Positions 14,730 to 54,727 of a DNA stretch of 64,000 nt are shown here, piece by piece. The notes under the pieces are model-generated. The model saw only the letters and a program-made list of their open reading frames with translations. It was not told the DNA's origin and did no database searches. The translations under genes were made by a program, and so were the position numbers. How positions within the stretch are numbered: the first letter of the stretch is position 1; the number at the start of each line of letters is the position of its first letter. Origin of the DNA: a virus; the IMG/VR virus record IMGVR_UViG_3300017917_002108, positions 62,001 through 126,000 of that record; one strand, written 5' to 3'.

Positions 14730-14959
14730 TGGACGAATTAGCACAAATTAAACGTCTAGCCGGTATCAATGAATTTAAAGGCTATCAGCCTTATAATATC
14801 GAACAAGGTAGTAATATTAGTCTAACCGGAAATGAAAAAGGCGAACTAATGAAAAAACACGATATCAGACCAGGAACTCCGGAATGGTTTAAGTTATGGT
14901 TCAGCCTACCCTATCTAACCGGTGAGAAACCTATTGGGAACGATGAATGGTTACGATAA
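14729..14959 (+). CDS. Small conserved phage protein
   Basis: ATG 14729 overlaps the preceding TAA (TAATG) and gives a 76-residue product starting [16 protein letters not shown]. The second half ([19 protein letters not shown] then [10 protein letters not shown]) is strongly patterned and familiar from T4-like aquatic phages, but I know no function. The end overlaps the Fe-S carrier gene by 13 bases. Confidence 0.7.
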
Positions 14960-31714: not shown

Positions 31715-31877
31715 CGACGACGGAGTAATTGTTCTTCCAGATGATCTGTTAACAGACCTAGGATGGACAGAAGGGGATACTCTTAAATGGATTGACAATC
31801 ATAATGGTTCGTGGAGTATTGTCAAGGAAGAAGACTTGACAAACTTTATTAAAAAAGGTATAATAAGTAATGAGTAA
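31686..31877 (+). CDS. AbrB/SpoVT-type swapped-hairpin DNA-binding protein
   Basis: The 63-residue product starts inside the dCMP deaminase gene. Residues 6-40 follow the AbrB/MazE swapped-hairpin pattern: NDDGVIVLPDDLLTDLGWTEGDTLKW. The rest is a short Trp/Ser/Glu-rich tail. Proteins of this size and domain are usually dimeric transcription regulators or antitoxins. No toxin-like neighbour is seen; the next gene is QueE. It may regulate this operon. Confidence 0.78.
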   Translation: MLKNWTLTVNDDGVIVLPDDLLTDLGWTEGDTLKWIDNHNGSWSIVKEEDLTNFIKKGIISNE

Positions 31878-32724
31878 AATAAAAATCGCAGAGCTGTTTT
31901 ACAGCATCCAAGGTGAAGGACGCTATATGGGGGTGCCCAGTGTGTTCCTTAGAACCTTTGGCTGTAACTTTAAATGTGCTGGGTTTGGAATGCCTAGGGG
32001 TGAACTAAGCTCAGAAGTAGAAGCCATTGCTGCTAGAGTATCGGAGTTTAAGAAGTATGAAGAACTTCCATTGGTTTCTACTGGTTGTGATAGCTATGCT
32101 AGCTGGGATCCTCGCTTTAAGGATCTTAGTCCAATGCTTACTATTGACGCCATCGCAGAAAGAATCTGCGAAATTTTACCATTCAACGGATGGCGAGAAG
32201 AGCACTTGGTTATTACAGGAGGAGAACCGTTGCTTGGGTGGCAACGTGCTTACCCAGAATTGCTGAGACATCCTAAGATGCAAGGCCTTAAAGAAATCAC
32301 ATTTGAAACAAATGGTACTCAACCTCTAACAGAAGAATTTAAAGATTACTTATTGGAATGGTTGATGCCTCATCCAGAATATCAAAAAGAAATCACATTC
32401 AGCGTCAGTGCCAAACTAAGTTGTAGTGGCGAGGAAAGGCATGAAGCCATACGTCCAGAAGTAGTATGCGGATATCAAGACTGGGGACATACTTATCTTA
32501 AATTTGTTGTAGCCACAGAAGAAGACGTAGAAGAAGCTATTGAAACAGCAGATATCTATCGTGCAGAAGGATTTACTGGTTCAATTTACTTGATGCCTGT
32601 GGGCGGTGTTGAAAGTGTGTACACACTAAATAATCGTCGCGTAGCAGAACTAGCGATGAAGAACGGACTAAGATATAGCGACAGATTGCAGGTGCCGCTG
32701 TTTAAAAATGAATGGGGAACTTGA
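31870..32724 (+). CDS. queE: QueE-like radical SAM 7-carboxy-7-deazaguanine synthase
   Basis: The 284-residue protein begins with the QueE signature YSIQGEGRYMGVPSVFLR. Cys32 and Cys36 (GCNFKC) are the first two cluster ligands, but the third, expected two residues after Cys36, is displaced by about 36 residues. Cys73 lies in STGCDSYASW, which matches the CDTKY.W segment after the third cysteine of standard QueE. So an insertion splits the CxxxCxxC motif. VITGGEPLL follows. The enzyme converts carboxytetrahydropterin to CDG, precursor of preQ0. It supports a 7-deazaguanine pathway with FolE and DpdA. Confidence 0.9.
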   Translation: MSKIKIAELFYSIQGEGRYMGVPSVFLRTFGCNFKCAGFGMPRGELSSEVEAIAARVSEFKKYEELPLVSTGCDSYASWDPRFKDLSPMLTIDAIAERICEILPFNGWREEHLVITGGEPLLGWQRAYPELLRHPKMQGLKEITFETNGTQPLTEEFKDYLLEWLMPHPEYQKEITFSVSAKLSCSGEERHEAIRPEVVCGYQDWGHTYLKFVVATEEDVEEAIETADIYRAEGFTGSIYLMPVGGVESVYTLNNRRVAELAMKNGLRYSDRLQVPLFKNEWGT

Positions 32725-35598: not shown

Positions 35599-35633
35599 GC
35601 CCTTAAATTTTTCACACAAGTAAATAATTCGCT

Positions 35634-35906
35634 ATGATTGAAATTAATGCCCTAGACGTACTTAATCGTAGAAAAGTTGATTATATTCCTAATCATTTTT
35701 CTAGAATGAAGGTCAACGACAGCGAAGCCAATATTGTCGAAACTGAATTTTGGATTAAGAATAAGCTACGAGGACGATATTTTTTACTTAAAATTCCTGC
35801 TATTTCGCATGATGGAAAATTAAAAAATAATACTGTCGTGGGATTTGAAAATCATAAAGAGCTAACGTATTTTATGTTGGCCTGTCCACATTTAAGGAGA
35901 ACATGA
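35634..35906 (+). CDS. Small hypothetical protein
   Basis: The 90-residue product starts MIEINALDVLNRRKVDYIPN and has FWIKNKLRGRYFLLKIPAIS. It follows a 35-base gap that holds an AAATAATT stretch but no convincing late box. Its last codons overlap the next start (ATGATG). Not recognised. Confidence 0.62.
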   Translation: MIEINALDVLNRRKVDYIPNHFSRMKVNDSEANIVETEFWIKNKLRGRYFLLKIPAISHDGKLKNNTVVGFENHKELTYFMLACPHLRRT

Positions 35907-36136
35907 TGACTGACGAAATTAAACAAGAAACAGCACCAGCACCTGAAACCGCTGCACCGCAAGCTGCCGCACCACAGGGTCCAGATTTAAATCTAAGCGA
36001 TCTATCTGCACTAAGAAGTATCGTAGATGTAGCTAGTCAAAGAGGAGCATTCAAAGCGGGAGAATTAGAATCAGTAGGTAAAGTTTACAATAAACTTTCA
36101 AACTTTCTAGACTCTGTCGCTAAGAAGGAGGCTTAA
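35906..36136 (+). CDS. Small Ala/Pro/Gln-rich conserved protein
   Basis: I choose ATG 35906 since AAGGAGA (35894-35900) is five bases away; ATG at 35903 is too close. The 76-residue product has a low-complexity N-terminal half (TAPAPETAAPQAAAPQGPD), then a compact helical half (LSALRSIVDVASQRGAFKAG) ending KKEA. Small proteins with this C-terminal pattern are conserved among T4-like cyanophages; unknown role. Confidence 0.68.
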   Translation: MTDEIKQETAPAPETAAPQAAAPQGPDLNLSDLSALRSIVDVASQRGAFKAGELESVGKVYNKLSNFLDSVAKKEA

Positions 36137-36138
36137 TC

Positions 36139-36792
36139 ATGGCCGCTCCTTTAAAACACATAGGTAGAATTAAATCAAATAACAGCAAAGTTCTAACAAT
36201 TTTTAGAACATTACCCGGCGAATCAAATATGGCCTTAGTATTGCCAGTAGCCAATCTTTCAGATTCGTATCACGATTCTGTGATGAAATTAGTAGAAACC
36301 GAACAGGCTCAAGAAGCATTTGAGTTTGGAGAAATTATGTTCACCAGAACATTTCCAGATGGAAGACCTATGTTACAGGCCATGCAGGTAGATAACCAAC
36401 TTCTACGAGTTCCTACAGATACTGTTGAGATGATTCCTACTCCAGGCAGCAGTATTGATCTTCATCAATTAAATATCCTGATCGCAGAACAAAAAAACTG
36501 TGCGGTTGACGATCTTTATACATTCGTTTCCGGTGCACCTAAAAAAACTGATGCGGTAGTAGAAGATGTGGCCAAAATAGAGAATCTAGGCAGAGATGTA
36601 GGTGAACCGAATATTCCTAAACCATTAAAGGCTAAAGAAAATGAAGTTTTATCAGATCTTGATCTAGCCAAATCATATCGTAGCCAAGCAGATGCCATGT
36701 ATAAAGAGGCTGCAAGATTACGTAAACAAGCAGATGAATTAGATCCGCCAAAAAAGAAAACTGTAAAGGCAGCCGAAACCGCCGATGCCTAA
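36139..36792 (+). CDS. Conserved phage hypothetical protein
   Basis: The 217-residue protein has an N-terminal domain (TIFRTLPGESNMALVLPVANL, then LVETEQAQEAFEFGEIMFTR) and a charged, probably helical tail (SYRSQADAMYKEAARLRKQ). Conserved in T4-like aquatic phages. It is coupled to the next gene by an 8-base overlap. No function recognised. Confidence 0.65.
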   Translation: MAAPLKHIGRIKSNNSKVLTIFRTLPGESNMALVLPVANLSDSYHDSVMKLVETEQAQEAFEFGEIMFTRTFPDGRPMLQAMQVDNQLLRVPTDTVEMIPTPGSSIDLHQLNILIAEQKNCAVDDLYTFVSGAPKKTDAVVEDVAKIENLGRDVGEPNIPKPLKAKENEVLSDLDLAKSYRSQADAMYKEAARLRKQADELDPPKKKTVKAAETADA

Positions 36793-37093
36793 GCCTTTAT
36801 TTAAACCTCCAAAACATTTAGTACAAGAATGGCCGGAGGTATTTGAAGATCTCTACATGAATACTATGCCTGTACACTATCTAGAAAGTGTAAGGTTAGA
36901 ATTTCAGAATGGAAGAGTATGGGAAATAAATGTTGCTGATCAACTGAATCTTTCAGCCAGCGAAATAATTGCCGATAGATTAATAGAGACCTTTGCAGAA
37001 TATAAAGATGATATCAAGAAAATTGATTTTAAAATCAATATACTAAAATTAAAAGACGATATACAAAGTCAATCAAATAATATATTGAACTAA
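36785..37093 (+). CDS. Small conserved phage protein upstream of the radical SAM genes
   Basis: The 102-residue product starts MPKPLFKPPKHLVQEWPEVF, with MNTMPVHYLESVRLEFQNGR and a helical end. It precedes the first radical SAM gene by one base. It resembles small virion-morphogenesis proteins of T4-like phages but I cannot name one. It is too large and has no leader/core split typical of a peptide substrate. Confidence 0.62.
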   Translation: MPKPLFKPPKHLVQEWPEVFEDLYMNTMPVHYLESVRLEFQNGRVWEINVADQLNLSASEIIADRLIETFAEYKDDIKKIDFKINILKLKDDIQSQSNNILN

Positions 37094-37094
37094 T

Positions 37095-38714
37095 GTGGAC
37101 AAAAAAATCAAATTTTACGATAAGAATTTTCATAGTATCAGAGAGACGATTAATGAAATAAGCGATTCGTTCTGTGCTGCAAAATGGCTTCAGGTCAGCT
37201 TACATCTTACCAACGGTAAAACTCATAGTTGCTATCACCCCCCTACACATGATATTGACAGGCAGGATCTAGAAATAGATCCTGCTTCTTTGCATAATAC
37301 CAAACAAAAATTCATAGAAAGAAAAATGATGCTGGAAGGTCAAAGACCTCCGGGCTGCGAATATTGTTGGAAGATAGAAGATTCAGGACATATCAGTGAT
37401 AGGTATTATCGCAGCAGCGAACATTGGGCGGTTGATAAAATAGAATATATAAAAAATCTGCCCTATGATTTTTCTATCAATCCCACATATGTTGAAGTCA
37501 ATTTTAATCAGACCTGCAATTTTAAATGTTGTTATTGTAGTCCTCATCTAAGCAGCACATGGCAAGAAGAGGTCGAAGAATATGGTCCTTATAAGATAAA
37601 TTCTTCATTACATAATCACATAGCTACGTTACAAAATGCAGGACTCATGCCTACAGGATCAGCAACAAAAGATAATCCGTATTTAGAATCTTTCTGGAAA
37701 TGGTGGCCTGATTTATATCCCAATCTAAAAGTATTTCGCATGACCGGTGGAGAACCGTTAATGGATGCAAATACTTTTAAAGTTTTAGATTATGTTATAG
37801 AGCATCCTAATAAAGAATTAGAATTAAGTGTTACATCTAACCTTTGCCCGCCAAAAGAACTTTTTGAAAAATTCTTGACAAAAGTTAAACAATTAGATTG
37901 TGTAGACCATCGGGTAGAATGTTATGTTCCAGATCCTAAAAACGGAAAGCCTTGGCAAGAATGGCCGCACTATATTATTGGTGCAAAGAACAAAGAATAT
38001 CACAGAAGCAATTTACCTTCCATAGAACGAAATGATATACCAGAGACCTTTGAAGGCATAGGTCATGCAAAAGAAAACGGAAGTTTTACATATCTATATT
38101 CTTATAAAGATTTTGCCTGCAAACATTTTACATTATATGTAAGCCTAGATAGTGTTGATTCTCAAGCAGAATATATCAGAAATGGTTTAAATTTTTCTAC
38201 CCTAGAATATAACATAGATAAATTTCTTTCAGAAACAGAGAATACTAGTATTAGTTTTATCAACACATTTAATCGATTAAGTATTCCCGGATTACGAAAA
38301 TATTTAGAATTGATGTTAAAGTTACGTAGAAAATTTTCTGGATCTGCTCAGAGATTTAAAGGAACCAAGAGATTCCAGCGTATATGGTTTGATATTCCTT
38401 TATTACGTAAACCTGAATGGTTAAGTGTATTGAATTGCGGTCCAGAAGAAATAACAGAATTAAAGAATATTCTTATCTGGATGGAAGAAAACAAGAGCAG
38501 TAAATATGAGAAAAATTTACAAGGTTTTAGACCCTACGAAATTGAGAAGCTGAAAAGAAACATAGACGTTATAGAAAATAACAAATTTGATGAGATAACT
38601 AAATTAAATAACAACAAAAATTTTAAAGAATTTTTCACCGAACACGATAAAAGAAGAAATACTAATTTTGAAATCAGTTTTCCAGAATTAGCAGAATGGT
38701 ATAGGAATTTATAA
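37095..38714 (+). CDS. Radical SAM protein 1 (N-terminal twitch type)
   Basis: GTG 37095 is the only plausible start before the conserved N-terminus. Of the 539 residues, the first 110 form a twitch-type N-domain with SCYHPPTHDID, GCEYCWKIED and HISDRYY. The radical SAM core has CNFKCCYC (CxxxCxxC) in VNFNQTCNFKC, then FRMTGGEPLMDANT for SAM binding and an LYVSLDSVD strand. A long insertion occurs around residues 280-345, including DHRVECYVPDPKNG. The protein ends with DKRRNTNFEISFPELAEWY. Such twitch rSAM proteins are annotated in phages without known substrate. Confidence 0.88.
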   Translation: MDKKIKFYDKNFHSIRETINEISDSFCAAKWLQVSLHLTNGKTHSCYHPPTHDIDRQDLEIDPASLHNTKQKFIERKMMLEGQRPPGCEYCWKIEDSGHISDRYYRSSEHWAVDKIEYIKNLPYDFSINPTYVEVNFNQTCNFKCCYCSPHLSSTWQEEVEEYGPYKINSSLHNHIATLQNAGLMPTGSATKDNPYLESFWKWWPDLYPNLKVFRMTGGEPLMDANTFKVLDYVIEHPNKELELSVTSNLCPPKELFEKFLTKVKQLDCVDHRVECYVPDPKNGKPWQEWPHYIIGAKNKEYHRSNLPSIERNDIPETFEGIGHAKENGSFTYLYSYKDFACKHFTLYVSLDSVDSQAEYIRNGLNFSTLEYNIDKFLSETENTSISFINTFNRLSIPGLRKYLELMLKLRRKFSGSAQRFKGTKRFQRIWFDIPLLRKPEWLSVLNCGPEEITELKNILIWMEENKSSKYEKNLQGFRPYEIEKLKRNIDVIENNKFDEITKLNNNKNFKEFFTEHDKRRNTNFEISFPELAEWYRNL

Positions 38715-40105
38715 TGGGTACAAAATACATAGAGATTATTAAAGACACCAGAGACCAACTAAACACCGTAGGCAAAGGATTTTGTTTGGCTAAATGGAAT
38801 ATGGAAACTCTGTATCTTCATATGGGGGATAACCATAGTTGCTACCATCCCAGACCTCATAAAATTGATAAATCTCTACTGGAATCTAATCCTAGTGCCC
38901 TACACAATACTCCGTGGAAGAAAGAGCAAAGAAAACTTATGTTAGAGGGCGGAAGGCCAGAAGAATGTTATTACTGTTGGAACATCGAAGATCTACCCGG
39001 AGATCATATCAGCGACAGAATGAAACACAGCTCAAATCATATTCAAACATTAAAACAGATAGTAGATGCTGGATGGGAAGCAGATTACAATCCAAGGCAT
39101 CTAGAAGTTAGTTTTGGTAACGGATGTAATTTTAGATGCGGATATTGCTGTCCTCAGGCCAGCAGTTCATGGATGGAAGAGATTAAAAAACACGGTAACT
39201 ATGATATAACTTATAATCAATACGGTATTGATTTTTTAGGATATAGTGAATTTTATAATAAAGATGATCCGAATCCTTATGTAGATGCGTTCTGGAAATG
39301 GTGGCCTGATCTACAAAAAGATCTCAAGGTTCTTAGGATAACAGGCGGAGAACCGTTAATGAATCCTAATACATTTAATCTCTTAGAGATGTTAGAAAAA
39401 GAACCTGCTCCGCATCTGCAGATACATGTGAATAGTAATCTAGGTGTGACTCACCGGTTGGTTGTGAAATTAGTAGATCATGTTAAAAGATTGCTTGAAA
39501 AGAAAGCGATAAAAGATTTTAAATTGTATACAAGCATAGACACATGGGGTCCTCAGGCAGAGTATATCAGAACAAATTTAGATATCAAACTGTGGGAACA
39601 GAACCTAAGCTATTACTTAGATAATCTTCCTCAACAAGATATAAGTTTTATGATCACGTTCAACGTACTTACGGTGACTAACTTTAGAAATTTATTAGAA
39701 AAAATATTAGAACTTAGAACAAAATTTAAAGGTTCTCCCTGGCATCAAAGAGTACAATTCGATACACCATATTTAAAAGAGCCCCCTCATTGGATGATTA
39801 ATATACTTCCAGAGTCATTCAACACCTATATGGATCAGCACCTCGAGTTCATCAAAGACAATCTTATTAGAGACCCGGGAGACATCGGATTTAACGAAAT
39901 AGAATACGAAGTGTTCAAAAGAGTTAGAGACTATATGAAAGAAAATCCAGTTGATCCTAAAAAAATCTCTCAAGGACGTAGAGATTTCTATGTGTTCTTT
40001 AATGAAACTGATAAACGCAACGGTACAAAGTTTCACGAAGTATTTCCAGAGTACATAGAATTCATGGAACTTTGTAAACAAGAATATTTAAATTATGACA
40101 AATAA
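38714..40105 (+). CDS. Radical SAM protein 2 (paralogue of protein 1)
   Basis: The start overlaps the stop of protein 1 (TAATG). The 463-residue product has the same layout: SCYHPRPHKID and ECYYCWNIED in the N-domain, the core motif CNFRCGYC in FGNGCNFRC, LRITGGEPLMNPNT, YTSIDTWGPQAEYIRTN, and a C-terminal ETDKRNGTKFHEVFPEY. Shared FWKWWPDL and DKRxxTxF segments show recent common origin with protein 1, without its central insertion. No SPASM-type Cys cluster is obvious beyond the N-terminal cysteines. Confidence 0.9.
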   Translation: MGTKYIEIIKDTRDQLNTVGKGFCLAKWNMETLYLHMGDNHSCYHPRPHKIDKSLLESNPSALHNTPWKKEQRKLMLEGGRPEECYYCWNIEDLPGDHISDRMKHSSNHIQTLKQIVDAGWEADYNPRHLEVSFGNGCNFRCGYCCPQASSSWMEEIKKHGNYDITYNQYGIDFLGYSEFYNKDDPNPYVDAFWKWWPDLQKDLKVLRITGGEPLMNPNTFNLLEMLEKEPAPHLQIHVNSNLGVTHRLVVKLVDHVKRLLEKKAIKDFKLYTSIDTWGPQAEYIRTNLDIKLWEQNLSYYLDNLPQQDISFMITFNVLTVTNFRNLLEKILELRTKFKGSPWHQRVQFDTPYLKEPPHWMINILPESFNTYMDQHLEFIKDNLIRDPGDIGFNEIEYEVFKRVRDYMKENPVDPKKISQGRRDFYVFFNETDKRNGTKFHEVFPEYIEFMELCKQEYLNYDK

Positions 40106-41264
40106 AACGCCTATATACTGTGTAAATGCATATCATACTCTAAGTATTAATTCGGTTGGCACCTGTAAAAGTTGCTGTATGGCAGACGGTGGAACTGAAT
40201 GGGGTCAAAGAGTATCCGATACACCGTTAGATGTTATATGGGAAGATCCTTATTTCTTGGATATAAGGAAGTCTCTTGCAGAAGGAATAAGACATCCTGC
40301 ATGTAAGAAATGTTGGGAAGAAGAGGATGCTGGAAGACATAGTAAACGTATAAGAGATAACGATAAAAAATTTGGATTTACGCCCTCTGATAAGATCAAG
40401 ATAGTTGAACTCAATCTAGGAAATACCTGTAATATACAATGTCGTACATGCCACCCTTACAGCAGTAGCAAATGGCTCAAAGAATATTATGTGACAAATA
40501 ATATAGATATTACTTACAAAAAATTTCTAACCAATGCAAAGGTCTATAACGACTGCTGGGAAGACGATAGCCTGGTATGGTCAGAACTAAACAAGATCGG
40601 TAAAGATATAGAAAGAATAGAATTTTATGGCGGTGAACCTTTCCTTTTAAAACAACAATGGAAATTTTTACAAAAATGTGTAGATGAAGGTTGGTCAAAA
40701 AATCAAATGATACATTACAATACCAACGGTACTACATGGCACGAAGAGAATATTAAATTATTCGAACATTTCAAATATGTGGATGTAGGTTTTAGTATAG
40801 ATGGTGTGGGCGAACAATTTGAATTTATGCGATATCTGGCCAAATGGGATGTTGTTTTAGAGAATTTACAAAAAGCTAAAAAATTTCAAGAAGGCAAATC
40901 AAATGTTTGGTTTGACATCTGTCATACTATCAGTTCATTGAATGTTTACTACATACCAGAATTCATAGAATATTTTGGTAAAGATTGGCGTATATATCTT
41001 AATCTTGTTCATTGGCCTGACTATTATGCCATCACCATCTTTCCAGATGCTATCAAAGAATTAATTATAAAAAAATTAGATTCAATTAGTGAAATAGATC
41101 ATAATCAAATTGTTGGAATTAAAAATCTTGTGGCCAACGGAAAATTTGATCCGAAAATCTGGGAAGAATTCAAAAACAGAATCACAATCCATGACGAATT
41201 TAGAGGACAAGATTATTATAAAACATTTCCTGAATTTGGATCGATTATAAGGAATCACGGATGA
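40095..41264 (+). CDS. Radical SAM protein 3 (N-terminal twitch type)
   Basis: Overlaps protein 2 by 11 bases. The 389-residue product has GTCKSCCMADGG and CKKCWEEEDAGR in the N-domain, CNIQCRTC in NLGNTCNIQC as the cluster motif, and RIEFYGGEPFLLKQ as the SAM-binding motif, with VGFSIDGVGEQFEFMR following. The C-terminus has HDEFRGQDYYKTFPEFG, a diverged form of the tail in proteins 1 and 2. Same family, more distant. Confidence 0.9.
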   Translation: MTNKTPIYCVNAYHTLSINSVGTCKSCCMADGGTEWGQRVSDTPLDVIWEDPYFLDIRKSLAEGIRHPACKKCWEEEDAGRHSKRIRDNDKKFGFTPSDKIKIVELNLGNTCNIQCRTCHPYSSSKWLKEYYVTNNIDITYKKFLTNAKVYNDCWEDDSLVWSELNKIGKDIERIEFYGGEPFLLKQQWKFLQKCVDEGWSKNQMIHYNTNGTTWHEENIKLFEHFKYVDVGFSIDGVGEQFEFMRYLAKWDVVLENLQKAKKFQEGKSNVWFDICHTISSLNVYYIPEFIEYFGKDWRIYLNLVHWPDYYAITIFPDAIKELIIKKLDSISEIDHNQIVGIKNLVANGKFDPKIWEEFKNRITIHDEFRGQDYYKTFPEFGSIIRNHG

Positions 41265-42499
41265 AATTTTGGACTACAGATAATGTCATACAAGTACATG
41301 TAGAATTATCAACATTTTGTAATGCCGCATGTCCTAAGTGTCCTAGGTATATTGATGGAACGATGGTTCTACGTCCAGGATTAGAACTTGAACAAATTAC
41401 CTTAGAAAAATTTAAAAAATATTTTAATGAAACATTCATAAGGCAGACCACTCAATGGTTATTCTGTGGTACACACGGAGATCCAATGATGGCCAAGGAC
41501 GCCATAGACATATTTGAATATTTGTACTCTATTAATAATGATCTTCAAATCAGAATCAATACCAATGGCGGGATGCGCAATGAGAAAGACTGGAGACGAT
41601 TAGGAGAGCTTTCTAAGAAAGTTAATAATAGATTTACCATAACTTTCAGCATTGATGGTCTAGAAGATACAAATCATTTATATCGCAGAAATGTTGATTG
41701 GGCCACGCTAATTAGAAATGTTAAATCTTATATAAATGCTGGCGGTAGGGCCACTTGGGATTTTTTAGTTTTTAAGCATAATCAACATCAGATCGAAGAA
41801 GCAAAACAATTAGCAGCAGATTGGGGCTTTTCGGAGTTCGCTCCTAAAAGAGCATTAGGTTTTGAGTATGACGGAAATATAAGAGATGTGCCTGTATGGG
41901 ACGAAAATGGCAATTACACCCATACATTAGAAGCATCTACAAATCCGGAATTTACCAATCATACACCTGATCAAATTAAATCTGTGGTCAAAATGCCCAC
42001 AGAAAGTCTAGTTACATTTTATAAAAATAATAGAGATATACTTAAAGAAAAACATATCAACGAAATGAAACAATGGGATGGATTAAATTGGAACGACCAA
42101 ATATACGATTATTCCAAGTATAACGAAAAAGTTATAAATTGCAAATCAAACATTGTTTCTATGCATAAAGGAAAAGTTATCTACGGTTCAGAGATTTTCT
42201 TAACGGCAGGCGGTATTGTTGGTCCATGCTGTTATATAGGTACTCAGTTCGATGTTACCTATAGAACTGTAGAAGTACATCAATTACAAAAAAAGATATA
42301 TGAGTACGGAGTTGATAATTTTAATCTAAACAAAAAAACTCTTCACGATATCCTCGAAGAAGGTCATCTAAACAATTTGTATGCTTCGTCGTGGGATAAA
42401 CAAAATAATCAAAGAATATTATATTGTTCGCATACTTGCGGTGAAAATAGTCATATCGATCGAATCTGGAACGAAGAAGCTCGTGCTAAGTTCGATTAG
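41261..42499 (+). CDS. Radical SAM protein 4 (SPASM-like C-terminus)
   Basis: Overlaps protein 3 by four bases (ATGA). The 412-residue product lacks the N-terminal twitch region: the cluster motif CNAACPKC is at about residues 19-26. WLFCGTHGDPMMAKD replaces the GGEP motif (GTHGDP type), and TFSIDGLEDTNHLYR follows. The C-terminal part has GGIVGPCCYIGTQ and ILYCSHTCGENSHID, cysteines that could bind an auxiliary cluster as in SPASM enzymes. SPASM enzymes often modify peptides or proteins. The substrate is unknown. Confidence 0.88.
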   Translation: MKFWTTDNVIQVHVELSTFCNAACPKCPRYIDGTMVLRPGLELEQITLEKFKKYFNETFIRQTTQWLFCGTHGDPMMAKDAIDIFEYLYSINNDLQIRINTNGGMRNEKDWRRLGELSKKVNNRFTITFSIDGLEDTNHLYRRNVDWATLIRNVKSYINAGGRATWDFLVFKHNQHQIEEAKQLAADWGFSEFAPKRALGFEYDGNIRDVPVWDENGNYTHTLEASTNPEFTNHTPDQIKSVVKMPTESLVTFYKNNRDILKEKHINEMKQWDGLNWNDQIYDYSKYNEKVINCKSNIVSMHKGKVIYGSEIFLTAGGIVGPCCYIGTQFDVTYRTVEVHQLQKKIYEYGVDNFNLNKKTLHDILEEGHLNNLYASSWDKQNNQRILYCSHTCGENSHIDRIWNEEARAKFD

Positions 42500-44486
42500 C
42501 GTTTTCTAATTCGAACTGTTGATATAACCAATCAAAATCGTTGATCTTTCTTAATTGATCAGGATTGTCTAAATTATCTATACCAAACTTCTTTCCTGCT
42601 CTAGCACCCGATATGGCATACTCCCCGTAAGGCATATTCTTTCCCACAATACACCAGATATCTATTCTATCATCTGTTTCTTCTTGATAATTTCTATCAA
42701 TCGATTTACTGACTAGTTTACAGACTTCTCTGAAAGCAGATTTCCATGTATTGAAGGGATCTGTATTAAATGCAGTATAGTTGCTGACTTCTTTCATAAT
42801 ACGAATTTTTTCGCTTATACTGGTGGTCATATCAACACTATTCATATTCATATCTAACACAGCCTGCTTAGGTAGCAACTTGACTCCACCATAACCGTAT
42901 TCTAATCCGTTAATAGGATTTCTACTATGCCAGATATGTACTATATCTCTATCCCATTTGTGTAATAATAAATCAAATTTGAATTCGTCAATGATATCAG
43001 CGTCGCCGTCGACTACATAAAACATAGGTGTAGTTGACAATTTCGCAGCTTCTCTATGAGCATTGTGAATTCCTTTAACTCCGTGAACACGCTTTGCTCT
43101 AGGAAATCTAGATATTAATTTATCGTAGTTATAATCCGCATTTGGTTCATTGTAACTAATAAAAATTATGTCATAGGGCTTAAGTTCACTGGCAACGATG
43201 TCGTGCTCTTTTTTATCAATTAGATATCTATGGTCAATCTCTTTAGCGGTTACAGGAATATTTTTAGACACCAACATAAGACCGCTGTATTTGATTTCAC
43301 TCACATCTCGATTCAGAAAAACATGATTAAATTTTCTTTCGCTGCTGTTGTGAGAAAATAATGAATTAAAATCAAAATCTTCTAAAGGTTGAATTTCATT
43401 AGGGATAATCCAAAATAATTCAGTTCTTGTTTTTTCGCAAGCTGAAAGATAATCTTGATAACTTTCAATTTCAAATCGATCAAACGGTATTGTTTGAGAA
43501 CAAACGATGTTGTGTTCTTTCTTATCGATAAAAAATCTATGATCAAACTCTTTTTTAGAGACGGGTTTCTCAGTGGTAAAAAGAACTATACCACTGACAT
43601 ATGATTCTTCTTCGACAACTTTATTTTTGAAAATATGATTAATAGATCTATCAAAATCGTATTCACCATTAAACGGATCGTAGTACAAATCAAATATATC
43701 TGTATTATTGACTTCGACATCTTCCCACACGCACCAGAAAAGAGGTTGTTGTTCTTGAGCAATTATTTTTAAATAGTCTTCATAATTTTTAATCGTATAC
43801 CTATTATATCGATACCTGCTTGCGACAGAATCGTATTCTTTTTTATTGATTAAAAATCGATGATCAATTTCTTTCTTTGATGCTGGCTTATTTTTTGAAA
43901 ATAATACTGGACCGCTTACAAAAGATTCAGTGGTCATGCATAGATTTTTAAAAACATGATTTTCATTTCTATCATAGCTGTTATGATGACTAAAATAGAT
44001 TTTGAAAATCTGCTCATTTATAATTTCTGTATTGTTCCATATCGCCCAAAACATGTCGGTACTAGATGTATCCAATGCTCGAATATAATCATCATAATTT
44101 CCTATCTTAAAAACTTCGTATTTTTTAGGACGGCTAGCAACAACATTGAATTCTTTCTTATTAATATAAAATCTATGATTAAATTCTTTTTGTGTGATTT
44201 TGGTTTCTTTGGAAAATAGCCCGATACCATCATAGCTGTCCCCGTTCAACCAAAGATGTATGTAGCTCTCATCCCATTTAGATACTCTATGATCAAAATT
44301 AAATGTATTTTCGACAACTAGATCGTCCCATACTATCCAAAAAAATCTAGTAAAGGCCTTGTTCCTAATATCTTCGAATGATGCAACATTTTCTATTTTT
44401 TGAGCAGATGGAAATCTCGAACGAAACTGTTGCCAATCGTTATCATTGATTTCTTTTTTGCTGGTATAAAATATATCGTAAATCAT
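42486..44486 (-). CDS. Repeat protein with C-terminal GT-A glycosyltransferase domain
   Basis: The 666-residue protein has a C-terminal domain (from about residue 425) very like the 292-residue protein encoded just upstream: FISYNEPNADYNYDKL, RVHGVKGIHNAH, and a metal-binding FYVVDGDADI (DxD). The first 420 residues are four repeats of about 105 residues, each ending with a motif such as KKEIDHRFLINKKEYD. Each repeat has an FW.VW.D..V core like the transferase core but without DxD. So it appears to be one active transferase preceded by degenerate copies. Substrate unknown. Confidence 0.8.
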   Translation of the reverse strand: MIYDIFYTSKKEINDNDWQQFRSRFPSAQKIENVASFEDIRNKAFTRFFWIVWDDLVVENTFNFDHRVSKWDESYIHLWLNGDSYDGIGLFSKETKITQKEFNHRFYINKKEFNVVASRPKKYEVFKIGNYDDYIRALDTSSTDMFWAIWNNTEIINEQIFKIYFSHHNSYDRNENHVFKNLCMTTESFVSGPVLFSKNKPASKKEIDHRFLINKKEYDSVASRYRYNRYTIKNYEDYLKIIAQEQQPLFWCVWEDVEVNNTDIFDLYYDPFNGEYDFDRSINHIFKNKVVEEESYVSGIVLFTTEKPVSKKEFDHRFFIDKKEHNIVCSQTIPFDRFEIESYQDYLSACEKTRTELFWIIPNEIQPLEDFDFNSLFSHNSSERKFNHVFLNRDVSEIKYSGLMLVSKNIPVTAKEIDHRYLIDKKEHDIVASELKPYDIIFISYNEPNADYNYDKLISRFPRAKRVHGVKGIHNAHREAAKLSTTPMFYVVDGDADIIDEFKFDLLLHKWDRDIVHIWHSRNPINGLEYGYGGVKLLPKQAVLDMNMNSVDMTTSISEKIRIMKEVSNYTAFNTDPFNTWKSAFREVCKLVSKSIDRNYQEETDDRIDIWCIVGKNMPYGEYAISGARAGKKFGIDNLDNPDQLRKINDFDWLYQQFELENANRT
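42489..42517. terminator. Hairpin between convergent radical SAM and glycosyltransferase genes
   Basis: AGTTCGATTAG (42489-42499) and CTAATTCGAACT (42506-42517) form an 11-bp stem with one bulged base and a 6-nt loop. It covers the stop codon of radical SAM gene 4 and the last codons of the convergent minus-strand gene, whose stop is at 42486-42488. The genes overlap by 14 bases. It could stop transcription in both directions, but there is no clear T-run on either side. Confidence 0.5.
43209..44193 (-). repeat. Four protein repeats of about 105 aa in the 666-residue transferase
   Basis: Junction motifs lie at about 44152-44193, 43840-43880, 43518-43558 and 43209-43247. They read QKEFNHRFYINKKEF, KKEIDHRFLINKKEY, KKEFDHRFFIDKKEH and AKEIDHRYLIDKKEH. 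Spacing is about 310-320 bases. DNA identity is moderate, so the repeats are old or fast-diverging, and too long-period for slippage. Confidence 0.8.
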
Positions 44487-45361
44487 TTTAGATATGTGTT
44501 TGTTAACTTAATGGTTTCGTTATACAACTCTAATGTATATTTGCTTTGACGAGAATCTAACCAAGGATAATCTAATCCTAATTCTGTTTTAATTTTAACG
44601 GCAAGGTCCTGGGCATCTTCTTCTACAAAGGTATGATTAACCTTTGTTTCATATATCTCTCTTAACATTTCAAAATCTCTAACATCGACATAGTTCCAAT
44701 CTGTACAATTAGTCATCCATGTTCCCATTCGAGCACCAAGAATAGCATACTTCCCATTTTCTTCATGTGCGCCTATAGTTGACCAAATCTTTAATCTATG
44801 AAGATTATGCCACCATATGCGTTCTTTAATTTCATCTGCGGGAATTCTTACCCCGTCAAGCAGAGTCATTTTGACACCTTCACGGAATCCTGCTCGCCAT
44901 GCTTGGAATGGACTGCCTGTTATAACTGTATCACTATACGACTCTTTAAATTGTACGTATCCATCTTCCCAACAAAAATCTACTTGAGCTCTGTCAGTAT
45001 CACTGGCTTCATGAGTCTTCATATTGAGTATGAAATCTTTTTTCCATATTTTTACTCCGCCATTCCCATACAATAGACCATTTAATCGATTTCTTCCTAA
45101 CCAACTATAGACCTGTATCTTGGGATCAGAAAAATCTAATTCTAAATTAAAAAATTTATTGTCTACAATATTATCTGCGTCTATGGTAATTACCCAATCT
45201 GTTTCGGATGACTGAGCCGCTGCCTTATGGGCTGCGTCGCTGCCTTTTACTCCGTGAATGCGTTTAGCCCAAGGTACCTTATTACATAGATCCGCATAAT
45301 GCAGATCTGCATTAGGTTCGTCGTAACTCAAAAAGAATAGATCTAACTCAACAGCTTTCAT
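44483..45361 (-). CDS. GT-A glycosyltransferase
   Basis: The 292-residue protein shares FLSYDEPNADLHYADL and RIHGVKGSDAAHKAAAQ with the C-terminal domain of the next gene. TIDADN gives an Asp-x-Asp metal-binding motif, followed by GLLYGNGGVKIWKKD and FQAWRAGFREGVKM. It matches phage GT-A transferases found in T4-like aquatic phages. Overlaps both neighbours by four bases. Donor and acceptor unknown. Confidence 0.85.
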   Translation of the reverse strand: MKAVELDLFFLSYDEPNADLHYADLCNKVPWAKRIHGVKGSDAAHKAAAQSSETDWVITIDADNIVDNKFFNLELDFSDPKIQVYSWLGRNRLNGLLYGNGGVKIWKKDFILNMKTHEASDTDRAQVDFCWEDGYVQFKESYSDTVITGSPFQAWRAGFREGVKMTLLDGVRIPADEIKERIWWHNLHRLKIWSTIGAHEENGKYAILGARMGTWMTNCTDWNYVDVRDFEMLREIYETKVNHTFVEEDAQDLAVKIKTELGLDYPWLDSRQSKYTLELYNETIKLTNTYLK

Positions 45362-45948
45362 AGTTTTTCAAAAATATAATTATCAAAAATTCTTCGTGTA
45401 TAAAGACTAAATTTTTCAGTCGGTGCTATCTTTACATGTTTTGGCCTATCGATAAGATCGCCTATTCTTAGACTGATCATTTCTAATAAAATATTAGGAT
45501 CATTATATCCTGTTACTAGAAATATCATTTCAGTTTCACCCGACCAAATAAATTTAGTGTGTTTAGGATCTATTGAAAAAATTAACTCTTGATCTTCCTC
45601 GATATATTGTACCAATATGTCAGGATCTTGCACAGTAGACCATTGTTTTTCTATAATTCTATGTAACACATCATCTATTTTTATAAGATTATGGGTGGCA
45701 AATTTACTTAATTTAAAAAACTTTTTGGTCGGAATATCTACTCTATAGGAAAACAGACTTTCTTGACCAGTCAAAATTTTATGTGCTTCTTCTTCATCTA
45801 TTTTGATTTTATCTAAAAGATCTATACTGCCCTTATGAGGAATAACCGACGTGACGAATCCGTCCTCGTTGAAAATAGCATAAAATTCAGTAGGTGTTGA
45901 TTCTTGGATCAATATCCATTCGTCAAAATCCATTAGTTCTTGTTCCAT
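45358..45948 (-). CDS. Unknown protein in the glycosyltransferase cluster
   Basis: A 196-residue soluble protein starting MEQELMDFDEWILIQESTPTEFYAIF, with no metal, nucleotide or membrane motif visible. It overlaps the transferase genes on both sides (16 bases upstream, four downstream), so it should be cotranslated with them. It may be an accessory or acceptor protein; that is inference. Confidence 0.65.
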   Translation of the reverse strand: MEQELMDFDEWILIQESTPTEFYAIFNEDGFVTSVIPHKGSIDLLDKIKIDEEEAHKILTGQESLFSYRVDIPTKKFFKLSKFATHNLIKIDDVLHRIIEKQWSTVQDPDILVQYIEEDQELIFSIDPKHTKFIWSGETEMIFLVTGYNDPNILLEMISLRIGDLIDRPKHVKIAPTEKFSLYTRRIFDNYIFEKL

Positions 45949-46775
45949 GCTATGTCCTCTAATAAACTAATAATTTCGTCTGTGATTAAATCCTTCTCTA
46001 CATAATGAACTAAATCGGTCTGATTATAATTACCGATTTTGAGTTCGCCTGTGGGTTTGAAATAAAAACCTGCATGTTCTGTAACACGATCTGCCGACCA
46101 AGGCCAATTCTGTACCATAGGCTTGAGATGAACTACCTTAGGAAAATCTAAATCATAAGATATTTCGTCCGTGATATCTAGAAGTTTTGATGATAAAGCG
46201 AATGCCTCGTCAGTTCCTACAATTTTAGGTTTCAATTTATCTAAAAATATATTTTTAAATTCTAAAGGATTAGAAATTATAAATCTTCCCAATTCAAAAA
46301 ATTCTCTAGAGATAGTGCTGTCTTTTTTAAAATATGTATAAAGAGAATATAGATTAGGTAATTCATTGGCCGTAAAAGTTTTTCTATAAAAATCGTCTGA
46401 TATTATTTCGCCTCTATATGTATAAGATTTATTGCATATATACAATTCGCAATTTTCTACAAAATAATCAACCCAATGACTATAATCTCTAATAAAGATC
46501 ATATCGGCATCAATACAAATTGTATGTTCGAAAGGAGATAATTGATCCATCCAAGATCTACCATTCCAAAAAGTCTGCTCTCTCCATTCGATTACATGAT
46601 CAAACACCCAAGGACTTTTTATTTTATCTAGTTGACTTTTATCATCTATAACTAAAGCTACTTTATCATAGCCTTCTTTTTGTGTATTTTTAATACTGAG
46701 TGCGGCAGCATAGGCACACTTTAGATAATCAAAATCTTGATGAGCAGAGACAATAATCAAATAACCAAAGTTCAT
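45933..46775 (-). CDS. GT8-like glycosyltransferase
   Basis: The 280-residue protein has a GT-A start (LIIVSAHQDFDYLKCAYAAA) and a CIDADMIFIRD motif with DxD for the metal and nucleotide sugar. GTDEAFALSSKL and a C-terminal HLKPMVQNWPWS with conserved His fit GT8-like enzymes. It overlaps the next two genes (16 and 4 bases). It probably transfers a sugar onto a phage structural component or host glycan, by context only. Confidence 0.8.
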   Translation of the reverse strand: MNFGYLIIVSAHQDFDYLKCAYAAALSIKNTQKEGYDKVALVIDDKSQLDKIKSPWVFDHVIEWREQTFWNGRSWMDQLSPFEHTICIDADMIFIRDYSHWVDYFVENCELYICNKSYTYRGEIISDDFYRKTFTANELPNLYSLYTYFKKDSTISREFFELGRFIISNPLEFKNIFLDKLKPKIVGTDEAFALSSKLLDITDEISYDLDFPKVVHLKPMVQNWPWSADRVTEHAGFYFKPTGELKIGNYNQTDLVHYVEKDLITDEIISLLEDIAWNKN

Positions 46776-47632
46776 ATAATTTCCATTAGTCTCTCTTTGT
46801 TTCTAATTATACTTTGTTTATTCATAACATGTATATCGATTCCTTCGGTAGCTGCCGCCCAAAAACTACCGCAATCGTTGGGTTTATCAATTAAATGTAC
46901 AAGTTTATTTCCATCCACCGATAATAAAATATCTTTATCATAAACAGACAGCACAGGAGGTAATGAATATATCTGATCTACTTCGTATCCGTTCATAATA
47001 TGACGGGCCACACTAAATGCTATATCATTTCTAAACTGTCTGGGATCAAATCTATAAAGATCTGCATAGTACCTATAATTGTCTCTGACAAAGTTTACCA
47101 AGTGAAAAAAGAATTTACTTTCTTGACTTTTATCGAACATAACAGTTGTGGCCCAAAACATATGAATACCTGTCTCCGAGACTCTACGATCTAAAACGCC
47201 AATGCGTTCTCCTGTTATATCATTTATGGTTTGACCCATGATTACTGGCGAATCAACATTCCAGTATTCATTTAGGCTATTTGAAAAAATTAAAAAATCA
47301 GAATCGATCAAAAGTGTTTTATCATAGGGACTTAGGTCCCATGCTGAATATCTATTAGAATTTTCAAATGGAATGTTCTGGCTATCGAATCCGTCGTGTA
47401 GTTTTCTATAATTTTTTGTTACCGGTTTTTCTACTTCTATTATCTTGTCAAATATTTCTAATGCTTTATCTTTATTTCCAGACTCGGTCATCCATTCAAG
47501 GGTATACTTGTCAGTTACTAGGCTGACCGGAACATTTAAATTTTTCTTAGCCAACCCTCCGGCTATAATCGCCATTAATCCGTAATCCACACTAGGATTG
47601 TTATGAGCGAAGATCAATACACCGTTGTTCAT
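46772..47632 (-). CDS. Glycosyltransferase-like protein
   Basis: The 286-residue protein has VLIFAHNNPSVDYGLMAIIA at the start, a LLIDSDFLIF motif (DxD) and a later MFWATTVMFDKS, with a C-terminal DIHVMNKQS region. It is similar in style to its downstream neighbour, but only weakly by sequence. The DSD motif makes a GT-A fold likely. It is the first of the five transferase-cluster genes after the structural genes, and overlaps both neighbours by four bases. Confidence 0.75.
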   Translation of the reverse strand: MNNGVLIFAHNNPSVDYGLMAIIAGGLAKKNLNVPVSLVTDKYTLEWMTESGNKDKALEIFDKIIEVEKPVTKNYRKLHDGFDSQNIPFENSNRYSAWDLSPYDKTLLIDSDFLIFSNSLNEYWNVDSPVIMGQTINDITGERIGVLDRRVSETGIHMFWATTVMFDKSQESKFFFHLVNFVRDNYRYYADLYRFDPRQFRNDIAFSVARHIMNGYEVDQIYSLPPVLSVYDKDILLSVDGNKLVHLIDKPNDCGSFWAAATEGIDIHVMNKQSIIRNKERLMEII

Positions 47633-48004: not shown

Positions 48005-48012
48005 TATTTATG
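48005..48012 (-). promoter_or_regulatory. Putative T4-type late promoter (CATAAATA, minus strand)
   Basis: On the minus strand the box lies 25 bases before the ATG at 47979. Transcription from here would cover the small virion gene and the whole glycosyltransferase cluster, so those genes look late-expressed. Confidence 0.65.
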
Positions 48013-48036: not shown

Positions 48037-48954
48037 TTAACTACCGGTAATAGACGAAATGACTGTTGAACTTGGGCCCGAAACGGCAAAACTACCCGAA
48101 GTTCCGGTGGGCTGTAGAACTCCATAGGCTCTAACCGAGTCTACTGTAAGCGAAAGTGTACCATCGACTAGATCGCCCGGAGCAGGAAGTCCGGGATCAG
48201 AATAATTGTCTATCCAGGTAATTCTAAATGTGATAACATTAGCAGTACCTGTTGAATTATTGGCTGTATTGCAAAGAGCTTCTAGTCTCCAATTATTGGC
48301 ACTATAAGGGCTGCTAGAAGATAATGAATAAAATTGCTGATAACTAGATGTCAACGAATAAAAATTTACGGCACCTGTATTACCACCAAACGGCTGAACT
48401 CCTGCCGAAGATAATAAATTACTCCAAGCAGTATTTTGTGCCACCGAAGTTCCACCTGTCCTCGAACTTGCAAATCTTATTTTGCCACCTGCATTGAAAA
48501 AATTTCTAGCCTTTTCAGCATCGGAAAAAGACACTGTAACTGTACAAGACAAAGAATTTGACCAAGATGCAGATGTAGATTGAGATCCCAGTGCATCTGT
48601 TACATATTGTCCAGCACCAATATCAAATCTATTAGTTTGTGTTGTTGATGCTAGAGTATCATACTGAGTGTTAGGATTTCCGGCACCGTATCTAATTACA
48701 TCTGTATTCTGTACTGTAACCATAGAAGTTGGAGCAGTACCGGTTTGATGCAACAGTGCATTGTAGATGTCGTATCGTAATTGATCCCATTGGGTTTTTG
48801 TAATTTGATTTCCTACAGACACCGCAGAACTAAAAGTAGTTTGACCATATCCGTAACTAGCGTCTGCACCTGAATACGAAGTACTCATCACTCTAATAAT
48901 CTTACTTCTTATAGAATTATAATCCGTAGCCGAAATTAAATCACCGATTGCCAT
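48037..48954 (-). CDS. Virion structural protein, fibre-associated
   Basis: The 305-residue protein is Ser/Thr/Gly/Asn-rich and beta-rich. It starts MAIGDLISATDYNSIRSKII, with later KAQ-free repeats such as TSSYQQFYSLSSSSPYS. No coiled coil or enzyme motif. The composition and location after four fibre genes point to a virion adhesin or fibre tip protein. I do not recognise a precise homologue. Confidence 0.72.
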   Translation of the reverse strand: MAIGDLISATDYNSIRSKIIRVMSTSYSGADASYGYGQTTFSSAVSVGNQITKTQWDQLRYDIYNALLHQTGTAPTSMVTVQNTDVIRYGAGNPNTQYDTLASTTQTNRFDIGAGQYVTDALGSQSTSASWSNSLSCTVTVSFSDAEKARNFFNAGGKIRFASSRTGGTSVAQNTAWSNLLSSAGVQPFGGNTGAVNFYSLTSSYQQFYSLSSSSPYSANNWRLEALCNTANNSTGTANVITFRITWIDNYSDPGLPAPGDLVDGTLSLTVDSVRAYGVLQPTGTSGSFAVSGPSSTVISSITGS

Positions 48955-48964
48955 AATTTATACC

Positions 48965-50719
48965 TTACAATATTACTGCTTCAATTAGTTTTAAACCTAC
49001 ATCATCGCTGCTTTCTAGAGCAATAGCAAACACATCATTCGCATGCGGAACAGCGGCGGTAGCAGCACCATCATTAGATGCTATTAATCTTTGACCTTTT
49101 TTCACAGATCCAATTACTTTGACCGGAACACGTCCCTTGAGAGCAACATAAACACCCCCTTCGAGATCTTTATTCATCATAAACGCAGGATTAGCACTGA
49201 TAACACCTATAGCTCTGTCGCCCCAACTGCTGGCTGTGATTTCTTTTTCGCCGCCTATTACAACAACAGTACCTGGTTGATATTCAGCATCTGGTAGATA
49301 TTTTTCTGCTAGGTCGGCATATCTTGCAGCAGTAGCAGTTCCATTGAACAATGTAGCAGTTAGATTGCCAGATCCATCTCTAGCTGCAATAGTATCAGCA
49401 GTCGCGGTAGTTTTTGCAGATTTATAAGCAGAAGAATCATCTATCGCGGCATCGTCGATTTTTAGTTTATCTGTTTTGTCTGTGGTGCCAATAAATCTAT
49501 TAGCTGTAATATTAGCAGAGGTGTCTCTTAAGGCAATAGATGTTGCTACAGCACCAAGTTCTCCCACTAGACTATTGAGTGTAGTAGCGTTTGAAGCTGT
49601 TCCTGTAACTGAACCGATAACATTTCCGTTTAATGTCCCAGTAAAACTACCTATAAAGGTCTGTGTGGCTGCATTAAATGCCACCGTGTCGTCGTTGGCT
49701 CTAACATTTCCCTTATGGATACCTGTGCTATTTCCTGTGATATTTCCTGTGACATTACCGATAAGTGTGGTTGCATATATATTAGCATACTTACTAGCGG
49801 TACTTCCGATATTAAAAAAGTCTGTTGTACCTGGTAATATAGCACTAGGAGTGAATATAGCAACGTTTCTTAGATCGCTATCACTTACACGTATTCTTAT
49901 AGCTATAGTATTACCTAAACGATTCTCTATTACAGGTTCATCACCATTTTCTACCCTAAATCGTATATCGTTTTGATCACCTAGTGTGAAACCTGCATCA
50001 TTAAATGAAATTTCTTGTTCAAATGCAACTTCGCCTAGTCTGACAAAATCACTGGCTAGGTATCCGCCTAGTCTTGCTGAGTTTGATGCAGTACCCCAAA
50101 AATAATGATCGGTACTAGTAACACCAGTACTACCATTAGTATTAACTAGATTAAAACCTTTTTTGAGGATAGTGAAACCTGTGATAGGATTGATATCACT
50201 GTCTAGTGTAAATGCATCTTTACTGACTATTCCGATAACCTCGCCGCCCGAAAACAGCTTCATAATAGTGTGGTTAGTGCCTACATTATCTTTAACAACC
50301 TGAGAAGCAACTGTACTAGCACCCAAATCAGGTGCTGCTTCTGGTCCGATGAGAATGAATTCTGTACCGTTATAGGTATATAATTGTTCTGCACTGGTGT
50401 CAAACCACATATCACCTAGTTGTAAACCAGTAGGAGCGGTTGGTCCTACTTCTGCACCGCTGGCTGTTCTATATCTAATACCGTCGTAGAAACGCAGTTT
50501 TTTAGTACCGCTATCAAACCAAATCTGTCCAGAAAGAGATTTAGGTGGTTGTGTAGTGTTTGAAAAATTCTCTAGTAGATGTAGGAAGTTTTCGTTCTGT
50601 ACTTCACCATATCCGGCGTAATTTTTACCTACAAATCGTAGATCAGTAGTGGTGTCAATGGTGCCGTCGTCTACAGAGACTAAAAACGTTCCATTATATC
50701 TGTCTACTTGATATGCCAT
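48965..50719 (-). CDS. Tail fibre-like protein A (peptidase_G2-like C-terminus)
   Basis: The 584-residue protein shares its N-terminal 130 residues with three neighbours (VDRYNGTFLVSVDDG, NYAGYGEVQNENFLHLLENF, then GQIWFDSG). The middle is Ser/Thr/Asn-rich fibre repeat. The C-terminal 110 residues start ARYADLAEKYLPDAEYQPG and include GVISANPAFMMN and LKGRVPVKVIGSVKKGQ. They resemble a self-cleaving or peptidase_G2-like chaperone domain of phage fibres. A GATAAATA late promoter precedes the gene. Confidence 0.82.
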   Translation of the reverse strand: MAYQVDRYNGTFLVSVDDGTIDTTTDLRFVGKNYAGYGEVQNENFLHLLENFSNTTQPPKSLSGQIWFDSGTKKLRFYDGIRYRTASGAEVGPTAPTGLQLGDMWFDTSAEQLYTYNGTEFILIGPEAAPDLGASTVASQVVKDNVGTNHTIMKLFSGGEVIGIVSKDAFTLDSDINPITGFTILKKGFNLVNTNGSTGVTSTDHYFWGTASNSARLGGYLASDFVRLGEVAFEQEISFNDAGFTLGDQNDIRFRVENGDEPVIENRLGNTIAIRIRVSDSDLRNVAIFTPSAILPGTTDFFNIGSTASKYANIYATTLIGNVTGNITGNSTGIHKGNVRANDDTVAFNAATQTFIGSFTGTLNGNVIGSVTGTASNATTLNSLVGELGAVATSIALRDTSANITANRFIGTTDKTDKLKIDDAAIDDSSAYKSAKTTATADTIAARDGSGNLTATLFNGTATAARYADLAEKYLPDAEYQPGTVVVIGGEKEITASSWGDRAIGVISANPAFMMNKDLEGGVYVALKGRVPVKVIGSVKKGQRLIASNDGAATAAVPHANDVFAIALESSDDVGLKLIEAVIL

Positions 50720-50741
50720 TGATCAACTCCATTATAATAGT

Positions 50742-50749
50742 TATTTATC
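50742..50749 (-). promoter_or_regulatory. Putative T4-type late promoter (GATAAATA, minus strand)
   Basis: Reads GATAAATA on the minus strand, 22 bases before the ATG at 50719. It lies in a 44-base gap between two fibre genes. Confidence 0.65.
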
Positions 50750-50763
50750 GGAAATAATATCTT

Positions 50764-52854: not shown

Positions 52855-52878
52855 AATCGCCCCTTGAATATTCGTTCA

Positions 52879-54717: not shown

Positions 54718-54727
54718 AGTTTATACC

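Follow-up and report, generated by a model that had tools for sequence, protein, structure and literature searches.

Introduction

Pelagimyophages, which are T4-like, carry a hypervariable island termed the host recognition cluster, located between VrlC and gp14, in which tail fibres occur together with glycosyltransferases (GT8 among them) and radical S-adenosylmethionine (SAM) cassettes (PMC7029224). The glycosyltransferases were proposed in that report to carry out O-chain modification, and the radical SAM genes were mentioned in passing. For a T4-like environmental viral genome, TARA_ERS488813_N000010, 12 radical SAM genes are reported, together with an A-type carrier of Fe-S clusters (PMC5332604). 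Here, four consecutive radical SAM genes (rS1 to rS4) are described from a 64,000-nucleotide stretch of viral DNA, referred to as the window, which covers bases 62001–126000 of the 146,604-base virus record IMGVR_UViG_3300017917_002108. The four genes occupy positions 37095–42499 of the window and consist of a conserved head pair and a swappable tail pair, with a glycosyltransferase set beside them. The DNA polymerase of the record belongs to the T4 superfamily and shares no more than 50% identity with its counterparts in the best-matching phages compared.

As in the pelagimyophage cluster, tail fibres and glycosyltransferases of a T4-like phage occur here together in a single hypervariable island; the likeness is one of gene content and does not imply a SAR11 host. 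Like TARA_ERS488813_N000010, the present phage combines many radical SAM genes with Fe-S assembly genes, here IscU- and IscA-like. That genome has 12 radical SAM genes, whereas up to 23 matches to the N_Twi family were found per record in this study, and neither an operon grammar nor a pairing with glycosyltransferases is described in the part of the report available. The Vibrio phages of the K566/KVP40 group are cultured and, like the present phage, carry N_Twi genes, but their radical SAM proteins are 22–24% identical to rS3 and are accompanied by other glycosyltransferase families in another gene order. In K566, a distant phage, the N_Twi genes are interleaved with genes for GT8 enzymes and with one weak GT4-like gene. 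The cultured Pelagibacter phage Mosig holds an island (locus L087, 54464–70958; L numbers label the compared sequence loci or stretches) of hydroxylases, nitroreductases, aminotransferases, a carbamoyltransferase and MoaA-like radical SAM genes, with no N_Twi gene, looking like a small-molecule pathway.

The products of rS1, rS2 and rS3 belong to the NCBIfam family NF033640 (N_Twi_rSAM), a name without a tested function. What the present locus adds to that name is the run of four consecutive radical SAM genes, the head pair, the swappable tail pair and a partner glycosyltransferase of the GT-A fold. Multi-radical-SAM T4-like phages and radical SAM cassettes beside phage glycosyltransferases were already known; no account of the operon grammar, of the GT-A partner or of the function of N_Twi proteins was found in the literature searched.

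Four adjacent radical SAM genes

The four genes lie on the plus strand without any intergenic space, overlapping by 1 nt (rS1/rS2), 11 nt (rS2/rS3) and 4 nt (rS3/rS4). They encode proteins of 539 aa (rS1, 37095–38714, GTG start), 463 aa (rS2, 38714–40105), 389 aa (rS3, 40095–41264) and 412 aa (rS4, 41261–42499). An earlier, sequence-only reading of the stretch had noted these overlaps, the CxxxCxxC motif in every protein, GGEP in the first three and GTHGDP in the fourth, and all were confirmed. The Pfam Radical_SAM domain was found above cut-off in rS2, rS3 and rS4 (40.4 bits for rS4); rS1 scored 21.1 bits, below the cut-off of 29.5. With NF033640, rS1, rS2 and rS3 scored 296, 307 and 302 bits, above the cut-off of 170 bits, and rS4, which is without an N-terminal twitch, fell outside the family at 47.1 bits. 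By motifs, Pfam matches and the structural model of rS3, all four proteins are members of the radical SAM superfamily.

Against three same-order relatives (L262, L251 and L252), the proportion of synonymous differences (pS) was saturated at 0.69–0.89, and that of nonsynonymous differences (pN) was 0.12–0.34. Since low pN accompanied saturated pS and the motif cysteines were invariant, the four ORFs are real genes under strong purifying selection. The best conserved of the four was rS2 (81–83% identity to these relatives, the level of the flanking core genes), followed by rS1 (62–67%), rS3 (55–58%) and rS4 (47–49%).

In an alignment of 50 phage N_Twi proteins, Cys residues 9, 27, 70 and 73 (rS3 numbering) were invariant in 50/50 sequences, as were the SAM-cluster cysteines C112, C116 and C119 and the GGE motif. 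When PDB sequences were searched with the N_Twi profile, positions 11–83 of the profile matched residues 183–257 of BtrN, the C-terminal twitch of that enzyme (E = 1.9e-6), which indicates that in these proteins the auxiliary-cluster domain precedes the barrel rather than trailing behind it. The Cys-bearing, twitch-type N-domain proposed for the first three proteins was therefore upheld, in a transposed position relative to BtrN (2-deoxy-scyllo-inosamine dehydrogenase, an aminocyclitol enzyme), where the twitch is C-terminal. The N_Twi core matched SkfB best, and also GDGT-MAS, MoaA and BlsE. Among 42 homologues of rS4, the cluster cysteines C20, C24 and C27 were invariant, together with four extra cysteines behind the barrel (C294, C323, C389 and C393). 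The SPASM-like ending that had been assigned to rS4 was rejected, as a SPASM domain with its two auxiliary clusters would call for seven extra cysteines; four, the number also found in the N_Twi proteins, fit a twitch-like domain with a single cluster. On this pattern of conserved cysteines, rS1 to rS4 are all twitch-domain radical SAM proteins with one putative auxiliary cluster each.

The AlphaFold2 model of rS3 (mean pLDDT, predicted local distance difference test, 91) matched radical SAM structures at modest template modelling (TM) scores, probably because the domains are transposed. Its fold matches include the peptide enzymes CteB, SuiB and ChlB and the sulfatase maturase anSME, and the C-terminal part of rS4 matched the peptide epimerase YydG.

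The first three proteins had been said to share a DKRxxTxF tail and to have arisen by duplication. The tail is present in rS1 and rS2 and not in rS3, which ends HDEFRGQDYYKTFPEF; the C-terminal trait common to the whole N_Twi family is D..R...FPE. In the tree, rS1-type proteins formed one clade (B1; 98 by the Shimodaira–Hasegawa-like approximate likelihood ratio test, SH-aLRT), and a second clade (99) united the rS1 and rS2 types and a single further phage protein. On this tree the duplication that gave rise to rS1 and rS2, which share 43% identity, is old and common to many phages, and rS3 lies in a separate deep lineage. A recent duplication of all three within the phage was ruled out by the same tree.

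Gene order in related phages

Public collections were searched with single proteins and with the rS4 alignment, and 95 non-redundant viral loci, many of them fetched with rS2, were compared. Approximately 38 non-redundant phage loci with proteins of the rS1/rS2 type showed two such B-type proteins followed by a second pair. This second pair was rS3-rS4 in 19 loci (a manual count from the locus gene orders), an rS4-type/N_Twi pair (s8-n16 or s8-n18) in ten and another in nine. In L169 and L174 the flanks were those of the window's clade, yet the tail pair was the other one, which points directly to an exchange of modules. In about 20 of the loci of this type, a gene of the GT-A family immediately preceded the head pair in the same orientation; in about nine, such a gene followed the tail pair in convergent orientation. 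The number of N_Twi copies ranged from 2 to 23 per record; NF033640 matches numbered 23 in a phage record of 138 kb, 21 in one of 180 kb and 19 in one of 99 kb. The arrays are thus neither unique nor random: relatives did not occur singly at scattered places, but in arrays with a shared neighbourhood, built from a conserved head pair and a swappable tail pair. The multi-step pathway suggested by the sequence-only reading is supported by this conserved order, by co-inheritance, by purifying selection and by the recurrent pairing.

Glycosyltransferases beside the arrays

On the 3' side, the array converges with a minus-strand, glycosyltransferase-like set. The 292-aa protein of this set (44483–45361, minus strand) belongs to a family for which neither Pfam nor the PDB sequence search gave a match, and a fold search was therefore used. 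Among the fold matches listed for its AlphaFold2 model (pLDDT 91), all were glycosyltransferases or glycan synthases, at TM-scores that were modest (0.27–0.42, by query); the top PDB match was a PBCV-1 enzyme linked to capsid glycosylation. A DxD-type motif was present in the family, with D63 invariant and D61 conserved in at least 90%. Based on the model, the product is predicted to fold as a GT-A glycosyltransferase.

Members of this GT-A family were found in 44/75 viral loci with N_Twi genes compared with 1/20 without (p = 9e-6; relatedness and fetching mode ignored), and in 9/24 bacterial contigs with N_Twi genes compared with 0/50 without (p = 1e-5; positives mostly Bdellovibrionota, relatedness and fetching mode likewise ignored). 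The proposed link between the radical SAM genes and the convergent glycosyltransferases was in this way borne out in relatives, in both orientations, and in bacteria, and independently in Vibrio phage K566 with GT8. Near other phage arrays, genes were identified for a DegT aminotransferase, a UDP-Glc/GDP-Man dehydrogenase, a GDP-mannose dehydratase/epimerase, a cytidylyltransferase and a carbamoyltransferase, and bacterial N_Twi contigs had GT2 genes nearby. Most neighbour families of the arrays had no match in Pfam.

The remaining genes of the set are also on the minus strand. A repeat-bearing, glycosyltransferase-like protein of 666 aa (42486–44486) is convergent with rS4, overlapping it by 14 nt; it clusters with the GT-A family and has no Pfam match. 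About four repeats (..HRF.I.KKE...VAS..) precede its glycosyltransferase-like end, and its homologues in close relatives span 351 to 822 aa, suggesting a variable repeat number. The 196-aa product of 45358–45948, without a Pfam match, is a conserved partner of the module, and homologues of it accompany N_Twi genes in 26 loci. It is followed by a glycosyltransferase-like protein of 280 aa (45933–46775; no Pfam match), which has a homologue of 37% identity in the neighbourhood of other arrays, and by a GT8-like glycosyltransferase of 286 aa (46772–47632), whose PF01501 score of 21.8 bits was just under the cut-off of 24.3.

In the Bdellovibrionota contigs L126, L120, L109 and L111, N_Twi genes, rS4-type genes and further radical SAM genes were densely clustered, accompanied by the GT-A family (L126 and L111), GT2 or PP-loop ATPase genes.

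Tail fibres and late-promoter-like elements

A cluster of five tail-fibre genes (48037–56803, minus strand) lies on the same strand as the glycosyltransferases and upstream of them in the direction of transcription. Four of the five matched tail fibre or tail proteins in PHROG; the fifth, a 305-aa gene at 48037–48954, had no PHROG match. In 30/71 loci with at least two N_Twi genes, tail-fibre homologues lay at a distance of 6–11 genes from the closest N_Twi gene, compared with 0/24 of the others.

A core of the TAAATA type serves as the late promoter in T4 and in cyanophages. One such element (35621–35626, plus strand) is found 5' of the contiguous unit 35634–42499, which ends in the radical SAM genes, and in 7/7 relatives inspected such an element immediately preceded the homologous gene. 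Another (48005–48010, minus strand) is found 5' of the glycosyltransferase operon, before position 47979, and was kept in L262, L252, L173 and L179, the relatives whose sequence extends over this site. Both elements were retained despite variable flanks. The hexamer was strongly under-represented in the window, with 48 sites observed and 107 expected. Twelve of the 48 fell in intergenic DNA, which makes up 3.8% of the window (p = 2e-7), and ten of these 12 immediately preceded a gene start. On the model of T4 and cyanophage late promoters, the radical SAM unit and the glycosyltransferase operon may both be expressed late.

In the phage record, TAAATA was the most under-represented hexamer. Example sites in the window are 2531, 6545, 10885, 15667, 20002, 34887 and 35621 on the plus strand and 48005, 50742 and 57485 on the minus strand. 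The T4-type late promoter TATAAATA had no match in the window, and the shorter TAAATA core fits. Sigma-70 promoters and terminators in the window showed no excess over shuffled sequence.

Proposed function and alternatives

We infer a sugar substrate, late timing and a surface acceptor, and propose that a modular, late-expressed pathway makes or tailors an unusual sugar for a glycan of the virion or of the host surface. Both acceptors taken together, the probability of this proposal is put at about 0.57. In its favour are the GT-A and GT8 neighbours, the sugar-nucleotide and carbamoyltransferase genes near other phage arrays, the resemblance of the N-terminal domain to the twitch of the aminocyclitol enzyme BtrN, the distances to the tail fibres, the conserved TAAATA elements and the grammar of head and tail pairs. 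The phage's own virion, in particular the tail fibre, is tentatively favoured as acceptor by the tail-fibre linkage and the late-type elements. The host O-antigen or capsule, to which the literature and the bacterial versions point, is somewhat less probable.

In the proposed mechanism, the reduced Fe-S enzymes would cleave SAM, and the 5'-deoxyadenosyl radical would abstract a hydrogen from a sugar or sugar nucleotide, leading to redox chemistry, epimerisation, deoxygenation or C-C chemistry. The auxiliary cluster of twitch enzymes such as BtrN aids substrate binding or takes up an electron, and the putative clusters here may do likewise. The head pair would carry out a step common to many phages, and the tail pair a clade-specific step, exchangeable for that of another pair with an altered product. 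The neighbouring GT-A and GT8 glycosyltransferases would then attach the product to the surface acceptor. Clusters and electrons could be supplied by the phage's IscU-like protein, A-type carriers and dicluster ferredoxin.

A more detailed version, which is doubtful as a whole, has the fixed N_Twi head pair making a common radical-modified sugar intermediate, the exchangeable N_Twi/C-twitch pairs finishing it differently and the GT-A enzymes placing the product on the tail fibres. Related phages would then diversify their own virion chemistry as bacteria do their O-antigens, with Bdellovibrionota holding the cellular version.

Several results weigh against the sugar proposal. It rests on gene context rather than on chemistry, which is unproven, and the radical SAM core resembles peptide maturases (SkfB and CteB) as much as small-molecule or sugar-nucleotide enzymes. 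No evident sugar-nucleotide pathway was seen in the examined parts of the phage's own record, and 31/75 N_Twi viral loci had no member of the GT-A family within reach. The association tests were uncorrected for relatedness, with many viral loci coming from one clade and fetched with rS2, and the role of TAAATA as a late promoter rests on the T4/cyanophage analogy.

Many SPASM/twitch enzymes act on peptides or proteins, and the enzymes might instead mature a ribosomal substrate, either a peptide resembling the ribosomally synthesized and post-translationally modified peptides (RiPPs) or the side chains of a virion protein, on which the glycosyltransferases would also act. The best sequence match of the core, the fold matches of rS3 and the YydG match of rS4 described above agree with this, as does an Asp/Arg hydroxylase-like gene near some arrays. 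Such a substrate is nevertheless unlikely, because the operon leaves no gap for a precursor gene and, apart from Radical_SAM, Pfam detected no domain in any of the four, hence no recognised leader-binding domain, although divergent RiPP recognition elements can escape Pfam. Furthermore, no conserved precursor-like family of small ORFs was present in the neighbour table, which holds ORFs of at least 60 aa (a distant or very small precursor would have escaped it), and glycosyltransferase and sugar-nucleotide genes dominate the identifiable neighbours. Of the substrates originally considered (a structural protein, a small peptide or a sugar), context thus favours the sugar or glycan and disfavours the peptide. 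A product unrelated to the neighbouring tail fibres, whether a free small molecule directed against competitors or the host or a modification of nucleotides or DNA, is distinctly improbable. Other phage arrays do include carbamoyltransferase, amidinotransferase/deiminase-like, B12-radical-SAM and aminotransferase genes, the phage has QueC/D/E-like genes, and the metabolic island of Mosig is comparable; however, such a product would not explain why GT-A genes adjoin the arrays in phages as well as bacteria or why the distances to the tail fibres vary so little, and the remaining 7-deazaguanine genes are located in other parts of the genome.

Least probable is that the radical SAM genes share no pathway and are passengers, which duplication and transfer have piled up in a hypervariable island. 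The variability of the island, the 2 to 23 copies per record and the presence of homologues in many orders would be expected of passengers, but pN/pS indicates that all four are strongly constrained by purifying selection, and the grammar of conserved head pair, consistent tail pairs and recurrent glycosyltransferase partner argues against it.

The recurrence of radical SAM enzymes in aquatic T4-like phages has lacked an explanation. With the grammar, the glycosyltransferase partner and the cultured version in K566, the abundance of these oxygen-sensitive radical enzymes in phages becomes a testable question of surface glycans. If the sugar proposal is true, radical chemistry would join phage glycosylation, and an uncharacterised radical SAM subfamily with a transposed twitch would gain a function.

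Other genes of the phage

The 5' side of the array is occupied by conserved small genes, an exonuclease and a QueE-like protein (31870–32724), which is the fifth radical SAM protein within the window. A QueD-like PTPS (6-pyruvoyl-tetrahydropterin synthase; L271:9404–9952, L271 being a part of the phage's record outside the window) and a QueC-like protein (L272:14462–15055) are also encoded, and together the three genes probably represent a phage 7-deazaguanine pathway.

The Fe-S genes of the phage comprise an IscU-like gene (L271:13456–13860) and A-type carriers (L271:13832–14152 and window 14947–15270), and a dicluster ferredoxin is encoded at window 632–955. A coupling of Fe-S supply to radical SAM copy number was rejected: among 33 related records, IscU was rare, being found in four, and carriers above cut-off were found in ten, with no visible relation to the N_Twi count, so that Fe-S supply genes are no general companion of the arrays.

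Phages of this kind also encode TctA, of the tripartite tricarboxylate transporter, identified at L270:18020–19468 (minus strand, outside the window; 299 bits) and at L006:17364–18827 (284 bits). The TctA gene adjoins that of a secreted-looking, TctC-like protein without a Pfam match.

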